Made by a program: the position numbers and the translations under genes. From NCBI RefSeq assembly GCF_028551275.1, contig NZ_CP117025.1, forward strand, positions 1,483,501-1,547,500: a stretch of 64,000 nucleotides of DNA. The letters are read 5' to 3'. The notes under the pieces are model-generated. The model saw nothing but the letters and a program-made list of their open reading frames with translations, ran no database searches and was not told where the DNA came from. Source of the stretch: Sphingomonas hankookensis (lineage in GTDB: Bacteria; Pseudomonadota; Alphaproteobacteria; Sphingomonadales; Sphingomonadaceae). Of this stretch, positions 38,427 to 47,064 are shown one piece after another; position 1 is the stretch's first letter, and every line of letters begins with the position of its first letter.

Positions 38427-40097
38427 TCAGCGACAGGTCGACCCTTCGCCGGGGTTCAGGTCGAGGCAGCGGCCGTCGATTTCTCCCTTCGGCACGTTCA
38501 GCCCGATGGTGGCTGCCAGCGTCGGCAGGATATCGACCGTCTCGACACCGAACGGCTCCTCGAACCCGCCGGCGCCCTTGCGCCAGAACAGGATCGGCAC
38601 GCGCCGGTCATAGTCCCAGAAGCTGCCATGCGTCGCGACCGCGCTGCCGACAACCGGATGCGGCAGCGTCAGCACTCGCGGCTTCATCGCCACCAGCAGG
38701 TCGCCCGAGCGCGGCGGATAGAAGGACGCGCGGGCGCGCTCGACCAGCGTCCAGGTTTCGGGCGGGGTGTTCGGCACGGTCGTTGCCATGATCTGCGCGC
38801 GGGTAAAGACCGCCTGGGTCTGCGGATGCGCCATGAACATCGCGATCGCCTCGCGCTCGACCGCCGCCTTCTGCGCCGGGGTGAGCTTGATGTCGTACCA
38901 CACATCGCCATTGACCCCGCCGAACAGGATGGGGCCGGCGATGCCGAGCTTCTGCCCGATCGCCTTGCCGATGCCCTCGACGGTCAGCTCGCCGTCCTGC
39001 CGCACGGCGTCGGGAATTGCGTGGTGCGCATGGCGTTCGCTGGCGTCGCTGCCGCCATGGTCGGCGGTCAGCACAACCTGATAGTCGACACCCGTCGCGT
39101 CGAGCACCTTGAAGAACTCACCGAGGCTCTGGTCGAGCGAGGTCAGCTGCAGGCACATCTCGCTGCCTTCGGTGCCATAGCCGTGCCCGACATAGTCGGT
39201 GGCCGACGCGCCGATCGAGATGATGTCGGTCTGCGGCCCCTGACCCAGCTTCATGTCCTGGATCAGCCCGGCGGCAAGTGCGAGGACGGCGGCGTCATAT
39301 TCGGGCGAGCGGCGGAAATTGTTCACGTCGCCGGCGGCGCGTTCGAACCGGCCGGTGCCGATCGTCTTGCCCGCGACCGCAACGGCGCGGGCGAGCGGCT
39401 GGCAGAAGGTCGGCAGCGTCATCGGGCCTTGCGCGGTGGCGATCTGCTTCGCGACGGCTGCGTTGGCGCGTGCGACGACCGGCGGCATCGTGCGACCGGC
39501 ATAGCTGGTGAAGCCGTCCTTACCGAACCACCACAGCTCGTCGACCTTGTGCCCGCCCATCATCACCGCCGCGCGGTCCTTGCCCGCGACCGATACGACG
39601 CGGGTGCGCGGATCGGCGGCCTTCATCCGCTCGCCCAGCGTGGGCACCATCAGGTGCACGTCGGACACGGTATAGTCCTTGAAGGTCGAGCCGGGGACGC
39701 GCTCGTCCTCTGCACAATAGACCTTGTGATCGGGGCGGTTGTTGCCGCGCTGGTCGATCCAGTCATTGGCGATGATGCCGGTGCGCGACGGGCGCGATCC
39801 GGTCAGGATCGTCGAATGGCCGGGGCAGGTCTCCGTCGCGGCATGGCTCTGATAGCCCGAGGGGAACACTGCGCCCTGCATCATCCGCACGAACCCGCCG
39901 GTGAAGCGCGCGCGATATTCGGCGAACAGGTCGGCGGAGAATTGATCGACCGAGATCGCGACGATCAGCTTGGGCGGCGTCGCCGGATAGGTCGGCGGCA
40001 CCGGTAGGGCGGCCGGGACAGGGGCCGGTGCGGCGGTCTGCGCCAGAGCGGGGACGGCGGTGCCAAGCAGTAGCGCAGCGAGGGTCAGGAAACGCAT
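38427..40097 (-). CDS. Secreted alkaline phosphatase, PafA/SPAP type
   Basis: Periplasmic or surface phosphomonoesterase, 556 residues, of the nucleotide pyrophosphatase-like PhoA superfamily. A signal peptide (about 1-20) is followed by VAISVDQFSADLFAEY with the first metal-binding Asp. The nucleophile is Thr89 in ATETCPGHSTILTG, exactly the position and residue type described for the Sphingomonas enzyme SPAP, rather than the Ser of E. coli PhoA. Further metal-ligand motifs are TADHGGSD and the late THGSFWDYDRRVPI. The length also agrees with SPAP. ATG 40097 is chosen at the signal peptide. It may help phosphate scavenging; no Pho box was recognised upstream. Confidence 0.9.
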   Translation of the reverse strand: MRFLTLAALLLGTAVPALAQTAAPAPVPAALPVPPTYPATPPKLIVAISVDQFSADLFAEYRARFTGGFVRMMQGAVFPSGYQSHAATETCPGHSTILTGSRPSRTGIIANDWIDQRGNNRPDHKVYCAEDERVPGSTFKDYTVSDVHLMVPTLGERMKAADPRTRVVSVAGKDRAAVMMGGHKVDELWWFGKDGFTSYAGRTMPPVVARANAAVAKQIATAQGPMTLPTFCQPLARAVAVAGKTIGTGRFERAAGDVNNFRRSPEYDAAVLALAAGLIQDMKLGQGPQTDIISIGASATDYVGHGYGTEGSEMCLQLTSLDQSLGEFFKVLDATGVDYQVVLTADHGGSDASERHAHHAIPDAVRQDGELTVEGIGKAIGQKLGIAGPILFGGVNGDVWYDIKLTPAQKAAVEREAIAMFMAHPQTQAVFTRAQIMATTVPNTPPETWTLVERARASFYPPRSGDLLVAMKPRVLTLPHPVVGSAVATHGSFWDYDRRVPILFWRKGAGGFEEPFGVETVDILPTLAATIGLNVPKGEIDGRCLDLNPGEGSTCR

Positions 40098-40150
40098 TAA
40101 GGAACTCCGCGGACGGTGCATCCGTCCCGAAACTTCGCTACCCGGCGTAC

Positions 40151-42166
40151 ATGACACCGGCAAGAACGCTGTGGCGACTCGTCCTGATCCTTTTCGCATT
40201 TCTGGGCGCGTTGCCGGTGGCGGCACAGGTGCCGGGACAGCGGCATGTCCAGATGCGGATCGTAGCGGAGAGCGACGCCCCGGCGGCGGGATCGCGCGTT
40301 GCGCTGGCGCTGGTATCGATGCCCGATGCGGGATGGCACGGTTACTGGCAGAATCCCGGCGCGGTCGGCACCCAGCCGCAGCTCGACTGGACATTGCCGG
40401 CGGGTGCCAGCGTCGGTCCCTTGCGCTATCCGGTGCCCGAGCGGCTGACCGTCGCGGGCATCATGAACTATGTCTATGAGCGACCCTGGACCATCCTGAC
40501 CGAGCTGCAACTGCCCGCCGGGCTGGCGAAGGGCACCATCGTGCCGGTGCGGCTGTCGATCGACTATCTGGTCTGCACCCGCGAAATCTGCGTACCGGAA
40601 AAGGCGGAGCTCGCCACCGAACTGACGATTGGTGACGGCGCGATCAACCCGGAGCGTCGCGCCGATTTCGATGGCTGGCGGCGCGCGCTGCCCCGGCCGC
40701 TAGGATCGCCCGCACTGTTCCAGGCTGGCGACACCCTGAGGCTACGCGTGCCGTTTCCGGCGTCGCAGGCGATCGGCGATCCCTATTTCTTCCCGCTCAC
40801 CGAGAGCGCGGTCGATTACGATGCGCCGCAAAAGATCGCGCGCGACGGCGACGCCCTCGTTATCGAAACGAAGGCTACGGGCAAGTCGGCTGCGATCGAA
40901 GGCGTGCTCGCGACCGGTCCGGGGAAGGGCTTCGCGATCCGCGCGACCCCCGGCACGGTGGCGGCAGCGGCCGAACCGGCACCGATCCGCACCGTGCTGA
41001 TCGCCTTTGCCGGGGCGCTGCTCGGCGGACTGCTGCTCAACATCATGCCGTGCGTCTTTCCGATCCTGAGCCTCAAGGCGTTGAGCTTGGCCCGTTCGGG
41101 CGAGTCCGCGGTCCATGCGCGGGCGGAGGGTGTTGCCTATACCGCTGGAGCGGTCGTCACCTGCATGGCATTGGGCGGCATATTGCTCGCGATCCGTGCG
41201 GCGGGCGTGGCGGCGGGATGGGCGTTCCAGCTGACCGATCCGCGCGTCGTATTGCTGTTGCTGGTGCTGACCGGCGGCATCGCGCTGAACCTCGCCGGGC
41301 TGTTCGAACTGCCTACGCCACAGGTCGGCAACCGCAGCGGGCGGGGCGGGGCGTTCGCCACCGGGGCACTCGCGGCGTTCGTTGCCACTCCCTGTACCGG
41401 CCCGTTCATGGGTGCCGCGCTGGGATCGGCGCTGGTCCTTCCGCCGGTCGCGGCGATGGCGGTGTTTGCCGGGCTGGGCTTCGGTCTTGCACTGCCGTTT
41501 CTGTTGCTGGGCTTCGTTCCGGCGCTGCGGCGGCGCCTGCCTAAGCCCGGCGCGTGGATGGACGCGTTCCGGAAAGCGCTGTCGGTGCCGATGTTCCTGA
41601 CCGCGCTGGCGCTGGCATGGATATTGGGGCGGCAGTCCGGGGTCGACGGGATGGCAATGGGGCTGGGGGCACTGCTGCTCGCCGGGCTGGGACTGTGGTG
41701 GACCGGGCGGCGACAGCTGCGCGGGCGCGATCGGGCATGGAGGCCGGGGATCGCCGCACTGGTGCTGGCGGTGGCGAGTGCCGCGCTGGTGCAGCGCGCA
41801 CCGCCGGCCGGCGCTGCGACTACCGGGATCGCCGGCGCCGAACCGTTCAGCGAGGCACGGTTGGCGGCGCTGCGCGCAGAGGGCAAACCGGTCTTCGCCT
41901 ATTTCACCGCGGACTGGTGCCTGACCTGCAAGGTCAACGAACGCGCCGCAATCGAGACTCGCGCGGTGGCGGAGGCGTTCGGCAAGGGTGGCGTAAAGGT
42001 GCTGGTCGGCGATTGGACCGATGGCGACCCAGCGCTGGGCCGTTTTATCGAGGCGCATAACCGTGCCGGCGTGCCGCTATATCTTTATTATGCGCCGGGC
42101 AGCGGAGAGGCACGCGTGCTGCCGCAAGTACTTACGCCGGCGACGCTGACCGAACTGGTATCCTGA
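40151..42166 (+). CDS. Thiol:disulfide interchange protein, DsbD-like
   Basis: Membrane electron carrier passing reducing equivalents from cytoplasmic thioredoxin to the periplasm, 671 residues. A signal sequence is followed by an N-terminal beta domain with a Cys pair (LVCTREICVPE, about residue 140), a central membrane domain of about eight helices starting LLGGLLLNIMPCVFPILSLKAL (about 290-565) and containing a second Cys (ATPCTGP), and a C-terminal thioredoxin-like domain with CLTC (Cys590, Cys593 in TADWCLTCKVNERAA). All three redox Cys pairs needed for the relay are visible. It starts 53 bp from the divergent phosphatase gene. The reduced pathway could supply the exported MsrB at 31 kb. 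Confidence 0.9.
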   Translation: MTPARTLWRLVLILFAFLGALPVAAQVPGQRHVQMRIVAESDAPAAGSRVALALVSMPDAGWHGYWQNPGAVGTQPQLDWTLPAGASVGPLRYPVPERLTVAGIMNYVYERPWTILTELQLPAGLAKGTIVPVRLSIDYLVCTREICVPEKAELATELTIGDGAINPERRADFDGWRRALPRPLGSPALFQAGDTLRLRVPFPASQAIGDPYFFPLTESAVDYDAPQKIARDGDALVIETKATGKSAAIEGVLATGPGKGFAIRATPGTVAAAAEPAPIRTVLIAFAGALLGGLLLNIMPCVFPILSLKALSLARSGESAVHARAEGVAYTAGAVVTCMALGGILLAIRAAGVAAGWAFQLTDPRVVLLLLVLTGGIALNLAGLFELPTPQVGNRSGRGGAFATGALAAFVATPCTGPFMGAALGSALVLPPVAAMAVFAGLGFGLALPFLLLGFVPALRRRLPKPGAWMDAFRKALSVPMFLTALALAWILGRQSGVDGMAMGLGALLLAGLGLWWTGRRQLRGRDRAWRPGIAALVLAVASAALVQRAPPAGAATTGIAGAEPFSEARLAALRAEGKPVFAYFTADWCLTCKVNERAAIETRAVAEAFGKGGVKVLVGDWTDGDPALGRFIEAHNRAGVPLYLYYAPGSGEARVLPQVLTPATLTELVS

Positions 42167-42245: not shown

Positions 42246-43739
42246 ATGGGGCAAGCGTTCGACGAAATCTGGGGACAAGGCGGGCCGGACGATCCGCGCG
42301 CCGACCTTGCGGCACTGGCACGGTGGATGCGCGAGGTGCCGCCCCATGAGTTGAAACGCCGCCTGCAATCCGCCGAAGCGACCTTTCGCCAGCTGGGCAT
42401 CACCTTTGCCGTGTATGGCGATAGCGAGGCGGCGGAGCGGATCATCCCGTTCGACATCGTGCCGCGCGTGTTCATGGCCGACGAATGGGCACGCCTGTCC
42501 AAGGGGCTGATCCAGCGGACGCAGGCGATCAATGCGTTCCTCGACGACATTTATGGCGAACGCCGCATTCTGAAGGCCGGGGTGCTGCCGCCCGACCTGA
42601 TCTTCGGCAACGCGCAGTTCCGCCCCGAAATCGCCGGCATCCGTCCGCCGCACGGTGTCTGGGCGCATATCTGCGGCATCGATCTGGTCCGCACCGGGCC
42701 GGACGAGTTCTTCGTGCTGGAGGACAATGCCCGCACCCCGTCGGGCGTGTCGTACATGCTGGAAAATCGCGAGGCGATGATCCGGCTGTGCCCCGAACTG
42801 TTCCGCAATTTCCGCGTGGCGGCGGTGGACAGCTATCCCGACAAGCTGCTGGAGACGATGCGTTCCGTCGCTCCGCCCGGGGCGGGGGCGCATCCGACCT
42901 GCGTCGTGCTGACGCCGGGCCATTTCAATTCGGCCTATTACGAACACAGCTTCCTGGCCGATTCGATGGGTGTCGAACTGGTCGAGCCGGCCGACCTGCT
43001 GGTCGATGACGACGTGGTATGGATGCAGACCATTGCCGGGCGGGTGCGGGTCGATGTCATCTATCGCCGGATCGACGACGACTTCATCGATCCGGTGGTT
43101 TTCCGGCCGGAATCGCTGTTGGGGGTACCCGGCCTGATCGCCGCCTATCGCGCGGGCAATGTCGCGCTGGTCAATGCGCCGGGCAACGGCATCGCCGACG
43201 ACAAGGCGATCTACAGCTATATGCCCGAGATCGTCCGCTTTTATGCGGAGAGCGAGCCTTTGCTCCCCAATGTCGAGACATGGCGCTGCCGGGAGCCGGA
43301 TGCGCTCAAATACGTCCTCGACCATCTGGACGAGGTGGTGGTGAAGCTGGTCGACGGGTCGGGCGGCTACGGCATGCTGGTCGGGCCGACTGCGTCCAAA
43401 CAAGAGATCGAGGATTTCCGCCGCGCGCTGATCGCCGAACCGCAGCGTTATATCGCGCAGCCGACGCTGGCGCTGTCGACCGTGCCCACCCTGACCGACG
43501 CTGGCCTCGCCCCGCGTCACGTCGATTTCCGCCCATTCGTGCTGACCGGTGCGGAGACGGTACAGGTCGTGCCGGGCGGGCTGACCCGCGTTGCGCTGAA
43601 GGAAGGGTCGCTGGTCGTCAATTCGAGCCAGGGCGGCGGGACCAAGGACAGTTTCGTGCTCATGGACGATGGTCCGGTGCAGTCGCAGGTGCAGGCGCAA
43701 TCGATGGGCGGCATGACCCAGTCGCAGGGGGGGCGCTGA
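42246..43739 (+). CDS. Circularly permuted ATP-grasp protein
   Basis: Cytoplasmic enzyme of 497 residues, first gene of an ATP-grasp / alpha-E / transglutaminase-like triad. It belongs to the circularly permuted ATP-grasp group (DUF404/DUF407-like). Strong segments are FDIVPRVFMADEWARLSKGLIQRTQAINAFLDDIYGERRILKAGVLPPDLI, GIDLVRTGPDEFFVLEDNARTPSGVSYMLENREAM, and the late VVVKLVDGSGGYGMLVGPTASKQEIEDF with its Gly-rich nucleotide-binding loop. The family is predicted to form peptide (amide) bonds, and its genes are found beside alpha-E and transglutaminase genes in many bacteria, but no substrate is known. The next gene begins 1 bp after its stop. Confidence 0.88.
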   Translation: MGQAFDEIWGQGGPDDPRADLAALARWMREVPPHELKRRLQSAEATFRQLGITFAVYGDSEAAERIIPFDIVPRVFMADEWARLSKGLIQRTQAINAFLDDIYGERRILKAGVLPPDLIFGNAQFRPEIAGIRPPHGVWAHICGIDLVRTGPDEFFVLEDNARTPSGVSYMLENREAMIRLCPELFRNFRVAAVDSYPDKLLETMRSVAPPGAGAHPTCVVLTPGHFNSAYYEHSFLADSMGVELVEPADLLVDDDVVWMQTIAGRVRVDVIYRRIDDDFIDPVVFRPESLLGVPGLIAAYRAGNVALVNAPGNGIADDKAIYSYMPEIVRFYAESEPLLPNVETWRCREPDALKYVLDHLDEVVVKLVDGSGGYGMLVGPTASKQEIEDFRRALIAEPQRYIAQPTLALSTVPTLTDAGLAPRHVDFRPFVLTGAETVQVVPGGLTRVALKEGSLVVNSSQGGGTKDSFVLMDDGPVQSQVQAQSMGGMTQSQGGR

Positions 43740-43740
43740 A

Positions 43741-44679
43741 ATGGCGATGCTGTCGCGCACCGCCGCCTCCCTCTACTGGCTGGGCCGCTATGTCGAACGC
43801 GCCGATTTCCTCGCACGGCTGGTTGAGGCAACGGTGCGGCTCGACGCGCTGTCGTCGCGCCCGGCGGGCGACGCCGCCTGGGCCAGCGCGCTGGCGGTCA
43901 GCTATACCGAAGACAGCTTTGCCGCGACCGGGCAGGCGGTCGGGCAGGCCTCGGTCGCCCGCTTCCTGACCTGCGACCGCAGCCATGCCGGGTCGATTCT
44001 GTGGTGCCTCGACGCGGCGCGCAACAATGCGAAGGCGGTGCGCACCGCGCTGACCCGCGACGCATGGACGGCGATCAACCGCGCGTGGATCGTCTTCAAC
44101 TCACCGCGTGGCGAGGAGGGCGAGGATATCCTCAACCTGGTCGAGGCGATCAAGGCGGAGGCGCGCGGCTTCGAAGGCGCGGTCCAGCGCATGATGAAGA
44201 ACGAGGCGACGTGGTTCGTCCAGCTGGGTGCCGCAATCGAACGCGCCGACAACACCGCGCGGCTGATCGACGTCAAATATCACCTGCTGCTGCCCGAAGG
44301 CGAGCGGATCGGTGGCGCGATCGACCGCGACCAGTGGACCACGATCCTGCAGACGGTTTCGGCCGTCACCGCCTATCGCTGGCTGTACAGCGAGGGGCTG
44401 AAGCCCGCGAACGTCATCGAACTGCTGCTGTCACGTGGCGAAGTGCCGCGCAGCCTCGCCGCGTGCGTCGACGAAACGGTCGAGATGCTGAACATGCTCG
44501 GCAAGCGTACCGGCTTCCAGGGCGAGGCCGACCGCATGGCCCGCGCACGCCTCGCCCGGATGCAGAAGACCCGCGCACACGAGGTCATCGTCAGCGGCCT
44601 GCATGAATATCTGAATGCCTTCATCCGGGAGAATGCGATGCTCGACGCCGCGATCGCCCGCCAGTTCCGCTTCATCTGA
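43741..44679 (+). CDS. Alpha-E domain protein
   Basis: All-helical protein of 312 residues matching the bacterial alpha-E domain, the usual partner of the ATP-grasp gene upstream. The N-terminus MAMLSRTAASLYWLGRYVERADFLARLVEATVRLD is the family signature, followed by SAHAGSILWCLDAARNNAKAVRTALTRDAW-like helices and the repeated ERADNTARLIDVKYHLL. Charged Arg/Asp/Glu residues on the helices could form a conserved binding surface. No catalytic motif is known. Its last base overlaps the start codon of the transglutaminase-like gene (TGATG), so the three are co-translated. Confidence 0.88.
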   Translation: MAMLSRTAASLYWLGRYVERADFLARLVEATVRLDALSSRPAGDAAWASALAVSYTEDSFAATGQAVGQASVARFLTCDRSHAGSILWCLDAARNNAKAVRTALTRDAWTAINRAWIVFNSPRGEEGEDILNLVEAIKAEARGFEGAVQRMMKNEATWFVQLGAAIERADNTARLIDVKYHLLLPEGERIGGAIDRDQWTTILQTVSAVTAYRWLYSEGLKPANVIELLLSRGEVPRSLAACVDETVEMLNMLGKRTGFQGEADRMARARLARMQKTRAHEVIVSGLHEYLNAFIRENAMLDAAIARQFRFI

Positions 44680-45470
44680 TGCGGCTGTCGGTCCACCATG
44701 AGACGCGGTATCGCTTCACCGAACCGCAGGCGCGCATCGTCCAGCTGCTCCGGCTGTTTCCCGGCGATACGAGCCATCAGACGGTGGTCAACTGGCGTAT
44801 CGATGTCGACTGCGACGCACGGCTGCGGGAAGGGTTTGACGGCTACGGCAACATCACCCGGATGCTCTATGCCGAAGGCCCGGTCGATACGCTCGTCCTC
44901 TCCGTGTCCGGCGAAGCGCTGCTGACCGAACAGGACGGCCCGATCGAGGTCACCGACGAGCCGTTTCCCCCCGACCTGTTCCGTCGCGTAAGGCCGCTGA
45001 CGCGCGCGGATGCGTTGATCGAGGGGCTGGGGCAAGGCGACGACCTTGGCGCGATGACGGCGCTGGCCGGCGCGATCCATGCCCGCTGGCCGCTCGACCG
45101 GCGACCGACCCCGGCGATCCGCTCGGCGGCTGAGGCGGCAGGCGACGAGCGGCTGGGACCGCGCGACATGGCGCAAATCTTCATCGCCGCGGCACGGGCG
45201 CAGGGTGTGCCCGCGCGCTACGTATCGGGCTACAGCCTTTCCGGCGACGACGAACGGCGGACCGCTGCGCCGCATGCCTGGGCGGAGGCGTATGTGTCAG
45301 GCGGCTGGTACGCGTTCGATCCCGCGACCGGCGGGCGTTCGGGCCTCGATCATATCCGGGTCGCGGTGGCGCTGGATGCCGCGGGTGCAGCGCCGATCGC
45401 CGGGGTCCGGATGGGGGCGGGCGAGGAGGAACTGGACGTGGATGTCCGGGTAGGCAGCGAGACGGAGTAA
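44679..45470 (+). CDS. Transglutaminase-like protein lacking the catalytic cysteine
   Basis: Third member of the triad, 263 residues. It has the N-terminal immunoglobulin-like domain (MRLSVHHETRYRFTEPQARIVQLLRLFPGDTSHQTVVNWRI) and the transglutaminase core. The His and Asp of the catalytic triad are present (His199 in PHAWAEAYV, Asp214 in FDPATG). In related proteins the nucleophile stands in G-V-C-x-D-x-A; here the same place reads G-P-R-D-M-A, so Pro161 (codon 45159-45161) replaces Cys. The rest of the core (IFIAAARAQGVPARYVSGYSLSGDD) is well kept, so the gene is under selection but probably not a classical thiol enzyme. Binding or structural role, or an unusual mechanism, are the possibilities. 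Confidence 0.85.
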   Translation: MRLSVHHETRYRFTEPQARIVQLLRLFPGDTSHQTVVNWRIDVDCDARLREGFDGYGNITRMLYAEGPVDTLVLSVSGEALLTEQDGPIEVTDEPFPPDLFRRVRPLTRADALIEGLGQGDDLGAMTALAGAIHARWPLDRRPTPAIRSAAEAAGDERLGPRDMAQIFIAAARAQGVPARYVSGYSLSGDDERRTAAPHAWAEAYVSGGWYAFDPATGGRSGLDHIRVAVALDAAGAAPIAGVRMGAGEEELDVDVRVGSETE

Positions 45471-45472
45471 CA

Positions 45473-45593
45473 TCCTCCCCGGCACGGGGGAGGGCCGTGA
45501 AGCTGTGGTGGAGGGGATCGTCCCGAGCGTTCCGCTTGCGGAGCGTCCCCTCCACCAGCCTGCGGCTGGTCCCTCACCCCGTGCCGGGGAGGA
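45473..45593. repeat. Paired inverted intergenic repeat, family 3 (CCTCCCCGGCACGGGG type)
   Basis: TCCTCCCCGGCACGGGG at 45473 and its exact complement at 45577-45593 are the outer arms, with a second pair, GGTGGAGGGG/CCCCTCCACC, inside. The element fills the gap between the convergent transglutaminase-like gene and pyruvate kinase. The same family occurs at 49146-49279 between yebC and ruvC. Confidence 0.85.
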
Positions 45594-45597
45594 GCTT

Positions 45598-47064
45598 TTA
45601 GGCTTCGTGCCCCCGATAGTTCTTCAGTTCGTCGCCGACGATCTGAACCACGTGCAGCACGTTGGTCGACCCCGGCGTTCCGAACGGCACGCCGGCGCAG
45701 ACGACGACACGGTCGCCCGCGCGGGCCATGTTGTGGCGCAGGACCATGCGCTTGGCCTTCGCCACCATCTCCTCGAACGATTCGACGTCGCGGGTGTGGA
45801 CGGCATGGACGCCCCACAGCAGCCCCAGGCGACGCGCGGTGTCGATCTGCGGCGTCAGTACCATGATCGGCACGGCGGGACGTTCGCGCGCGATGCGGCG
45901 CGCGGTCGAACCCGACTTCGTGAAGCACAGGATCGCCTTCGCATCGACCGTGGCGGCGATGTTCTTGGCGGCTTCGGCCAGCGCGTCGGCGGTGGTGGGA
46001 TCGGGGCGCAGCACGGTGAAGTGGACGCGGTCGCCATGCGCCGGGTCGCGTTCGACGGCGTGCGAGATGTCGTTCATCATCGCCACCGATTCGACCGGCC
46101 AGCTGCCCGCGGCGCTTTCCGCCGACAGCATGATCGCGTCCGCCCCGTCATAGACGGCGGTCGCCACGTCCGACACTTCGGCGCGGGTCGGCGAGGGCGA
46201 GGTAATCATCGATTCGAGCATCTGCGTCGCGACGACGACCGGGCGGCCGAGGCGGCGGGCGGTCTCGACGATGCGCTTCTGCAGCGGCGGCACCGACTGC
46301 GGCGGCAGCTCGACGCCCAGATCGCCGCGCGCGACCATTACGCCGTCGCACTGCTCGACGATCTCTTCCAGCCGGGCGACGGCCGAGGGCTTCTCGATCT
46401 TGGCGAGCAGCGCCGCCTTGCCTTGAATGAGCTTGCGCGCTTCGGCCAGATCCTCCGGACGCTGCACGAACGACAGCGCGATCCAGTCCACGCCCTGGTC
46501 GACCGCGAAGTGCAGGTCGGAAATGTCCTTGGGTGTCAGCGCGGCCATCGGCAGCACGACGTCGGGCACGTTCAACCCCTTCGAATTCGACAGCGCACCG
46601 CCGACGACCACTTCGGTTTCGATCTTGTCATCGTCATGATCGAGGACGCGCAGCACCAGCTTGCCGTCATCGAGCAGCAGGCGGGCATCACGGGCGATCG
46701 CGGCGAAAATCTCCGGGTGCGGCAGTTCGACACGGGTCGCGTCGCCCGGCTCGTTCGAACGGTCGAGCGTGAAGCGCTGCCCGGCTTCGAGCATGACGCG
46801 CCCTTCGGCGAAGCGGCCGACGCGCAGCTTCGGTCCCTGCAGATCGGCGAGGATGGTCGTCGGGCGGCCGAACTGCTTCTCCAGCCCGCGAATCGCTTCG
46901 ATCACGGCAACCTTCGACTGCTGGTCGCCATGGCTCATATTGACGCGGAAGGCGTCGGCGCCGGCTTCGAACAGCTTGGCGATCATTTCCGGCGTGTTGC
47001 TGGCGGGGCCAAGCGTGGCGAGGACGCGAACCTTGCGCGAACGGGGGCTGATGGCCTTGGTCAT
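45598..47064 (-). CDS. pyk: Pyruvate kinase
   Basis: Glycolytic enzyme converting phosphoenolpyruvate and ADP to pyruvate and ATP, 488 residues. It shows VRVLATLGPASNTPEMIAKLFEAGADAFRVNMSHGD at the N-terminus (Arg and Asn/Ser of the active site), KLRVGRFAEG, the K+/Mg2+ site IARGDLGVELPP, the MIxxPxPTRAEVSDVATAVYDGADAIMLSAESAAG stretch, and a C-terminal allosteric domain with AILCFTKSGSTARRIARERPAVPI. Good length for a type A/B kinase. It is divergent from the DUF1244 gene, with a 71-bp promoter region, and convergent with the transglutaminase-like gene. Confidence 0.96.
   Translation of the reverse strand: MTKAISPRSRKVRVLATLGPASNTPEMIAKLFEAGADAFRVNMSHGDQQSKVAVIEAIRGLEKQFGRPTTILADLQGPKLRVGRFAEGRVMLEAGQRFTLDRSNEPGDATRVELPHPEIFAAIARDARLLLDDGKLVLRVLDHDDDKIETEVVVGGALSNSKGLNVPDVVLPMAALTPKDISDLHFAVDQGVDWIALSFVQRPEDLAEARKLIQGKAALLAKIEKPSAVARLEEIVEQCDGVMVARGDLGVELPPQSVPPLQKRIVETARRLGRPVVVATQMLESMITSPSPTRAEVSDVATAVYDGADAIMLSAESAAGSWPVESVAMMNDISHAVERDPAHGDRVHFTVLRPDPTTADALAEAAKNIAATVDAKAILCFTKSGSTARRIARERPAVPIMVLTPQIDTARRLGLLWGVHAVHTRDVESFEEMVAKAKRMVLRHNMARAGDRVVVCAGVPFGTPGSTNVLHVVQIVGDELKNYRGHEA

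Follow-up and report, generated by a model that had tools for sequence, protein, structure and literature searches.

The question raised by this locus is what a transglutaminase-fold protein does in a bacterial operon when the cysteine of its active site is gone. The protein, here called TG1, is encoded by the third gene of a triad in Sphingomonas hankookensis (NZ_CP117025.1), within the 64,000-nt stretch of DNA that was analyzed and that we call the window; all coordinates are window positions. An original prediction, made from the sequence of this DNA, proposed a pseudoenzyme role, and on balance we agree: TG1 is probably a conserved pseudoenzyme that serves a ligase formed by the ATP-grasp and alpha-E proteins as a substrate-binding or structural partner, and that is tolerated where a second, type-2 triad supplies the thiol step. 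Support for it comes from the clade-wide loss of the cysteine, the invariant His and Asp and fold core, purifying selection, the lack of a universal replacement Cys, and the presence of a second transglutaminase that bears its Cys. What goes beyond that prediction is the identity of the triad as an Anbu operon minus Anbu, the recurrence of the cysteine loss, and the tracking of the second triad by that loss.

The features on which the argument depends are as follows.

42246..43739, + strand: circularly permuted ATP-grasp ligase, type-1 (Anbu-operon) form, 497 aa (PF14403, E = 3.5e-164)
43741..44679, + strand: alpha-E protein, 312 aa (PF04168, E = 2.5e-76)
44679..45470, + strand: TG1, transglutaminase-fold protein without the catalytic Cys, 263 aa (Pfam Bact_transglu_N and Transglut_core)
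45153..45170, + strand: degenerate active-site motif L159-G-P161-R-D-M164 replacing G-V-C-Q-D-x (translation, alignment, and model)
45273..45275, + strand: His199 codon CAT, catalytic-triad residue kept (His in 109/109 Cys-less and 63/63 Cys rows)
45318..45320, + strand: Asp214 codon GAT, catalytic-triad residue kept (Asp in 109/109 Cys-less and 63/63 Cys rows)
45471..45597, no strand: intergenic stretch with inverted repeats, in the place that Anbu has in relatives (no Anbu match in the genome)

The three open reading frames (ORFs) are intact, with the 1-bp gap before the second and the TGATG overlap before the third that had been described. Pfam assigns the ATP-grasp protein to CP_ATPgrasp_2/1, and its residues 5-474 match 3N6X with E = 4.3e-188; for alpha-E a sequence search of solved structures gave nothing informative (best E = 0.57), and an NCBIfam search with all three proteins gave zero matches. 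Codon 45159-45161 is CCG, which puts Pro161 of TG1 where relatives have the cysteine of GVCQD, and codon reading and alignments agree with the original prediction that this residue is Pro and that His199 and Asp214 are intact. Its shortened motif, G-P-R-D-M-A opposite G-V-C-x-D-x-A, calls for a slight correction: L-G-P-R-D-M-A aligns without gaps to G-V-C-Q-D-x-A, placing TG1 residues L159-G160-P161-R162-D163 opposite GVCQD, and because the alignment is ungapped the Gly, Val, Cys, and Gln are all substituted rather than deleted.

The triad and the Anbu operon

Judged from its families, the triad is the known four-gene Anbu operon (ATP-grasp, alpha-E, transglutaminase, Anbu protease) minus Anbu. 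That operon, in Yersinia bercovieri and Hyphomicrobium for example, has the same families in the same gene order (PMC5666114, PMC6376114), and the window has PF14403/PF04174, then PF04168, then Bact_transglu_N/Transglut_core on one strand. It differs from the four-gene operon in the replaced transglutaminase nucleophile and in what should follow: in most Cys-type relatives read, Anbu comes directly after the transglutaminase, whereas in the window genome Anbu is not next to TG1 and a profile built from an Anbu alignment has no match anywhere. We used that profile since PF00227 was too insensitive, missing Anbu in genomes G016, G073, and G078. The window ATP-grasp is 57-72% identical to the ATP-grasps of Anbu operons read at full length outside the Cys-less clade described below. 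In PMC6376114, phosphate release from ATP was observed with the Yersinia ATP-grasp protein, the Anbu proteins assayed had no peptidase activity with the substrates tried, and the candidate catalytic Anbu residues are Thr1, Asp17, and Lys32(33), or T2, D18, and K33 counting the start Met.

For the genus of the window we examined 101 genomes, the named close relatives being Sphingomonas. The Anbu profile matches 8 of them, namely the 7 that keep the ancestral cysteine and G073, and has no match in the other 93.

Loss of the cysteine in Sphingomonas

TG1 is present in 98 of the 101 genomes; none of the 98 matches has an internal stop, one match is partial, and the TG1 of S. hankookensis CN3 is identical to that of the window. 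Position 161 is Cys-less in 90 of the 98, with 38 Pro, 23 Ser, 21 Ala, 4 Gly, 2 Val, 1 Thr, and 1 in which the loop is deleted. The ancestral GVCQD is found in 7 genomes (G016, G048, G049, G063, G078, G079, and G091); the G079 gene is split across two contig ends and was scored as ancestral from its second piece, which reads GVCQD, but is outside the counts of association with the type-2 triad. The remaining genome, G069 (locus L182), reads PDCRD, with a Cys at 161 in the absence of the preceding GV and of Anbu.

On a tree of the ATP-grasp and alpha-E proteins, with the transglutaminase excluded, the Cys-less Sphingomonas rows group into a single clade, with G016 (L208, with GVCQD and Anbu) as its sister. 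A single loss of the cysteine is the simplest account of this clade. G069 is nested within it, and hence its Cys is best read as probably regained. Ten close relatives from other records also all lack the Cys (8 Pro, 1 Ala, 1 Ser), with synonymous differences among them in codon 161 and the neighboring codons. An assembly error at the motif codons, which would have undone the original prediction, is thereby excluded, by the independent records and their synonymous differences and by the 90 of 98 genus genomes. The idea that the Cys-to-Pro change marks a clade holds in part: it is the loss of Cys that is common to the clade, and Pro is simply the commonest state (38/90).

A catalytic Cys might instead have moved, with C45, or C162 in four genomes, acting in place of C161. 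Most Sphingomonas Cys-less rows, and G016 as well, do have C45, and one small clade (L060, L062, L063, and L064) reads PCD or ACD, with a Cys one residue past the catalytic position. On the other side, C45 is missing from L038, L070, L073, L074, L164, L187, and L190, the model places it within a hairpin of the N-terminal beta domain, and a replacement Cys common to all Cys-less rows was not found. We regard such a relocated nucleophile as very improbable.

Order of the cysteine and Anbu losses

G073 (L036) has a transglutaminase without Cys and still has Anbu, 57% identical to the Anbu of G016 and with the three candidate catalytic positions kept. A tree in which G073 branches outside every other Cys-less Sphingomonas row fits as well as the best one found (p-AU 0.518, IQ-TREE, 41 rows). 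From these two facts the Cys was probably lost before Anbu, an order that the tree supports, and with G073 outside the other Cys-less rows Anbu can have been lost once, later. Taking the genus together with the loci from outside it that are described below, Anbu is not in the stretch read for 105 of 109 Cys-less rows versus 11 of 63 Cys rows. For the loci from outside the genus such absence refers to the fetched stretch, and some stretches are short or end with a contig. An independent-pairs test of Cys loss against Anbu loss has 3.4 pairs in favor and none opposed (median p 0.125); for Anbu loss against the type-2 triad it has 5.9 in favor and none opposed (median p 0.031, range 0.008-0.25). 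We also considered whether Anbu loss had driven the loss of Cys and rejected the idea, as L024, L036, L204, and L287 are Cys-less with Anbu and G073 suggests that the Cys went first.

Constraint and predicted fold of TG1

TG1 is under purifying selection. For the window and the ten close relatives (55 pairs), the ratio of nonsynonymous to synonymous rates (dN/dS) is 0.139 for TG1, 0.089 for the ATP-grasp, and 0.049 for alpha-E. Of the columns near-invariant in Cys-type operons, the Cys-less clade of Sphingomonas retains 124/127 for the ATP-grasp, 18/20 for alpha-E, and 15/21 for the transglutaminase, where 4 of the 6 changed columns are G159, V160, C161, and Q162. Across the 103 Sphingomonas Cys-less rows 29 of 261 TG1 positions are invariant, including H199, W201, G209, W210, and D214, with positions 159-162 free to vary. 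A group of invariant residues in the N-terminal domain (D44, D46, G55, G57, N58, M62, and Y64) is less conserved in the Cys set, and part of this N-terminal invariance may come from shared descent.

Pfam and the predicted model agree on a transglutaminase fold. The model folds like 3ISR, puts P161 as residue 1 of the helix expected to bear the nucleophile, and has H199 and D214 in predicted core strands; its longest helix is 14 residues, and Bact_transglu_N and Transglut_core are the only Pfam families found. TG1 has the Pro161 substitution at the Cys of GVCxD beside the His and Asp of the superfamily, and, to the extent that the modeled fold can be relied on, it has what defines a pseudoenzyme, an essential residue lost with fold and purifying selection kept.

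The constancy of His and Asp invites the thought that TG1 does a different chemistry, in which a His199-Asp214 dyad, perhaps with Arg162 and Asp163, catalyzes without a thiol, for instance by activating water or an amine to attack the acyl phosphate made by the ATP-grasp. Both residues are kept in all 109 Cys-less rows, those outside Sphingomonas included, and Asp163 is found in 91% and Arg162 in 93% of the Sphingomonas Cys-less rows. However, residue 161 varies within the genus (P, S, A, G, V, T) and Arg162/Asp163 are substituted in L066, L067, and L070, so the motif loop does not give the impression of having been refitted, and H199 and D214, lying in predicted core strands, may be structural. 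We think this chemistry quite unlikely.

The type-2 triad

The original prediction suggested looking for a second, Cys-containing transglutaminase beside another ATP-grasp gene in this genome, and there is one, TG2, about 0.34 Mb from TG1.

L205:4061-7539: type-2 triad, fused ATP-grasp/alpha-E and Cys-bearing TG2

It has the same three domains as the TG1 triad, and TG2 is 28% identical to TG1 over nearly its whole length; the differences are that ATP-grasp and alpha-E are fused and that TG2 reads GGVCQDFAQ. Within the genus TG2 is found in 91 of the 101 genomes, which are the 90 Cys-less ones and G069 (matches in G016 and G079 were excluded as their own TG1; in G062 and G088 TG2 is in two pieces). 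The 7 ancestral-Cys genomes have TG2 in none and one alpha-E each. At the 36 loci read (30 in the genus and 6 outside, including Hansschlegelia and Devosia) the TG2 motif is VCQD in all 36.

Co-occurrence of this kind could mean a split enzyme pair, TG1 and TG2 forming a hetero-oligomer or sharing a pathway, in which TG2 would lend its active site in trans and TG1 would act as the binding or regulatory half. Every Cys-less row tested has the type-2 triad, TG2 keeps its Cys throughout the loci read, and the resemblance of the two proteins runs nearly end to end. The distance between the triads in the window genome speaks against it, and simple redundancy explains the co-occurrence equally well. 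We consider a split pair unlikely.

Recurrence in Alphaproteobacteria

Class-wide searches found a match in 79/240 and 142/385 genomes. Outside the genus we read the operons of 81 genomes, 61 of them with a TG1 state, plus 16 named loci. Seven Cys-less TG1 were found there: Hansschlegelia (L024) with Ala and Anbu, Devosia (L027) with an aligned Ala and no Anbu in the stretch, G142 with Ser without Anbu, G138 with Tyr and Anbu, G457 and G379 with Ala without Anbu, and G192 with Pro and Anbu. L024 and L027 were picked up by scanning with peptides taken from the Cys-less protein of the window, a bias toward Cys-less finds and not toward type-2 genomes. The trees behind the counts are FastTree trees with local support only, checked by IQ-TREE on 41 rows. 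Parsimony on 172 typed rows of the 195-row tree needs 8 state changes, either 7 losses and 1 regain or 6 losses and 2 regains. Among the alphaproteobacterial rows read, the count is thus about 6-7 losses of the cysteine, and each of them left His and Asp in place.

A type-2 triad was scored where a second, fused alpha-E agreed with the TG2 matches, which it confirms independently, and the search for TG2 outside the genus covered 61 genomes and then Hansschlegelia and Devosia, both positive. Not scored as type-2 were G164, whose second alpha-E is unfused, and G113, G132, G246, and G261, which have other transglutaminase paralogues; L306 was removed beforehand, as its transglutaminase is the type-2 one. 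The association counts use 157 rows, leaving out those without TG1, the gap at 161 (L067), duplicates (L030), and genomes unsearched for type-2. Outside the genus the type-2 triad accompanies 7/7 Cys-less versus 12/55 Cys rows (p 1.0e-4 by Fisher's test, without correction for phylogeny). On the parsimony states, the branch of loss is a type-2 branch at its end in 6/6 Cys losses (branch-length null, p 4e-4 to 1.2e-3), type-2 branches making up 27-33% of the Cys-present branch length with branches of change included. The association between Cys loss and the type-2 triad is likely real but not proven.

Role of TG1

By family, the thiol of the transglutaminase and the threonine protease Anbu have cleaving or acyl-transfer functions. 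Both have been given up in the lineage of the window, and the half made up of ATP-grasp and alpha-E has the appearance of an intact ligase. The ancestor of TG1 would be a transglutaminase-fold protein with Cys, His, and Asp, encoded in the four-gene Anbu operon. In a Sphingomonas ancestor that had a type-2 triad with a Cys-bearing transglutaminase, the nucleophile and its loop would have been freed from selection; Anbu would have been lost after the Cys, the ATP-grasp and alpha-E half staying strongly constrained. TG1 would have been kept because its fold and cleft, His199 and Asp214 included, still serve the ligase, with TG1 most likely a subunit for binding the peptide substrate or presenting it. 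Since fold, His, Asp, and nearby aromatics are kept, binding or presenting a peptide or stabilizing the ligase is the most likely role. We infer that TG1 is inactive, that it binds ATP-grasp/alpha-E, and that TG2 substitutes for it.

Several observations weigh against this account. At matched ATP-grasp identity, TG1 identity is below that of the Cys-type transglutaminase in 5/5 bins (2-13 Cys pairs per bin): for ATP-grasp identity 0.78-0.82 it is 0.508 in Cys-less (402 pairs) versus 0.597 in Cys (8 pairs), and for alpha-E the relation is reversed, 0.710 versus 0.610. Because of this faster divergence, part of the change in TG1 must be put down to relaxation, and on the alignments TG1 is somewhat relaxed yet not free. 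Type-2 gain and Cys loss fall on one branch in 3 of the 6 losses, and only the other three start with type-2 present. The independent-pairs test of Cys against type-2 gives 4.2 for and 0 against, with a median p of 0.125 that is not significant. Outside the genus, 12 of the 55 Cys rows have both triads and have nevertheless kept the Cys, and G069 regained its Cys although type-2 is present. The type-2 idea was drawn from the same data, Hansschlegelia and Devosia alone being tested afterwards. Finally, pull-downs with Yersinia bercovieri Anbu as bait gave, in PMC6376114, no specific binding of other operon proteins, which calls for caution over assuming a tight assembly.

The faster divergence would also fit a slow decay, with TG1 a functionless, relaxed remnant held by operon coupling; the loops are shortened in L066, L067, and L070, and some relatives have ATP-grasp/alpha-E/Anbu operons with no transglutaminase detected. 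A dN/dS of 0.14, 0 internal stops in 98 matches, and 29 invariant positions across 103 rows are hard to square with it, and we give decay little credence.

The conserved pseudoenzyme thus stays our preferred reading, and the TG1 case is best described as a recurrent enzyme-to-pseudoenzyme conversion inside a known operon. A bolder form, which we put forward tentatively, is that the triads split the labor across Alphaproteobacteria, type-2 being the thiol enzyme, the type-1 transglutaminase becoming recurrently a non-catalytic binding or regulatory subunit of the ligase, and Anbu being dropped afterwards. If true, it would be a recurrent and predictable route from enzyme to pseudoenzyme, set off by a second gene cluster. 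The tie between recurrent Cys loss and the second triad leads to the prediction that the substrates of the two triads are the same or overlap, and makes the retention of a dead enzyme a comparative question with replicates. TG1 is a natural test case of how dead enzymes stay useful, perhaps kept thanks to the second, complete set. A genus without the two presumed cleaving parts, first the transglutaminase Cys and then Anbu, and with the ligase half nearly unchanged suggests that this half is the conserved core, and strains of the window type let ligase and hydrolase functions be studied apart.

Comparison with known proteins

Among the literature matches listed, none deals with Cys-less transglutaminases of the Anbu operon, which is no proof of absence. 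The protein 3ISR, a Cytophaga hutchinsonii transglutaminase-like protein, has the Cys (GvCRDFAH) that TG1 lacks. Erythrocyte protein 4.2 (EPB42, PDB 7UZS) is a human red-cell protein, unlike TG1, and is not known to have an ATP-grasp partner. A Burkholderia gene cluster composed of these same families is dependent on NtrC (PMC5491218). In PMC12239564, Pseudomonas aeruginosa RloB/RloC joins an inactive transglutaminase-7TM protein and an ATP-grasp protein to the aspartic peptidase RloA, and RloB and RloC mutations rescue the defects of mutants without Rlo peptidases. The likeness there is that an inactive transglutaminase domain goes together with an ATP-grasp protein and a peptidase; RloB differs in its seven membrane helices and in having its transglutaminase domain in the periplasm, whereas TG1 has 263 aa, no long helix in the model, and a Bact_transglu_N match.

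Neighboring genes and minor observations

45598-47064, - strand: pyruvate kinase, the ORF downstream of TG1

Between TG1 and pyruvate kinase, 45473-45593 contains nested perfect inverted repeats with arms of 17 nt and 12 nt, and a probe from them occurs once in the window. Upstream, a DsbD-like thiol:disulfide protein is encoded at 40028-42166 on the strand of the triad, ending 79 bp before the ATP-grasp gene. Pfam identifies two ORFs after TG2 (L205:7784-13637), one of the IMS family and one of DNA polymerase III alpha type; a smaller ORF with no Pfam match precedes them, and the arrangement resembles imuA-imuB-dnaE2.

Record L016 (RPSH01000020.1), titled 'Bacillus sp. 2B10', has a Sphingomonas triad at 86-99% protein identity and for that reason looks mislabeled or contaminated. 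The opposite reduction to that of the window triad is seen in L250, L255, L257, L261, L274, L277, L278, L279, L281, L284, and L289, operons that have ATP-grasp, alpha-E, and Anbu and where no transglutaminase was detected. L257 is on the tree the sister of the Tyr161 row L204, and its genome, G266 (L257 and L300), has two type-1 operons, one with a Cys-bearing transglutaminase and no Anbu in the stretch, and the other with Anbu and no transglutaminase.

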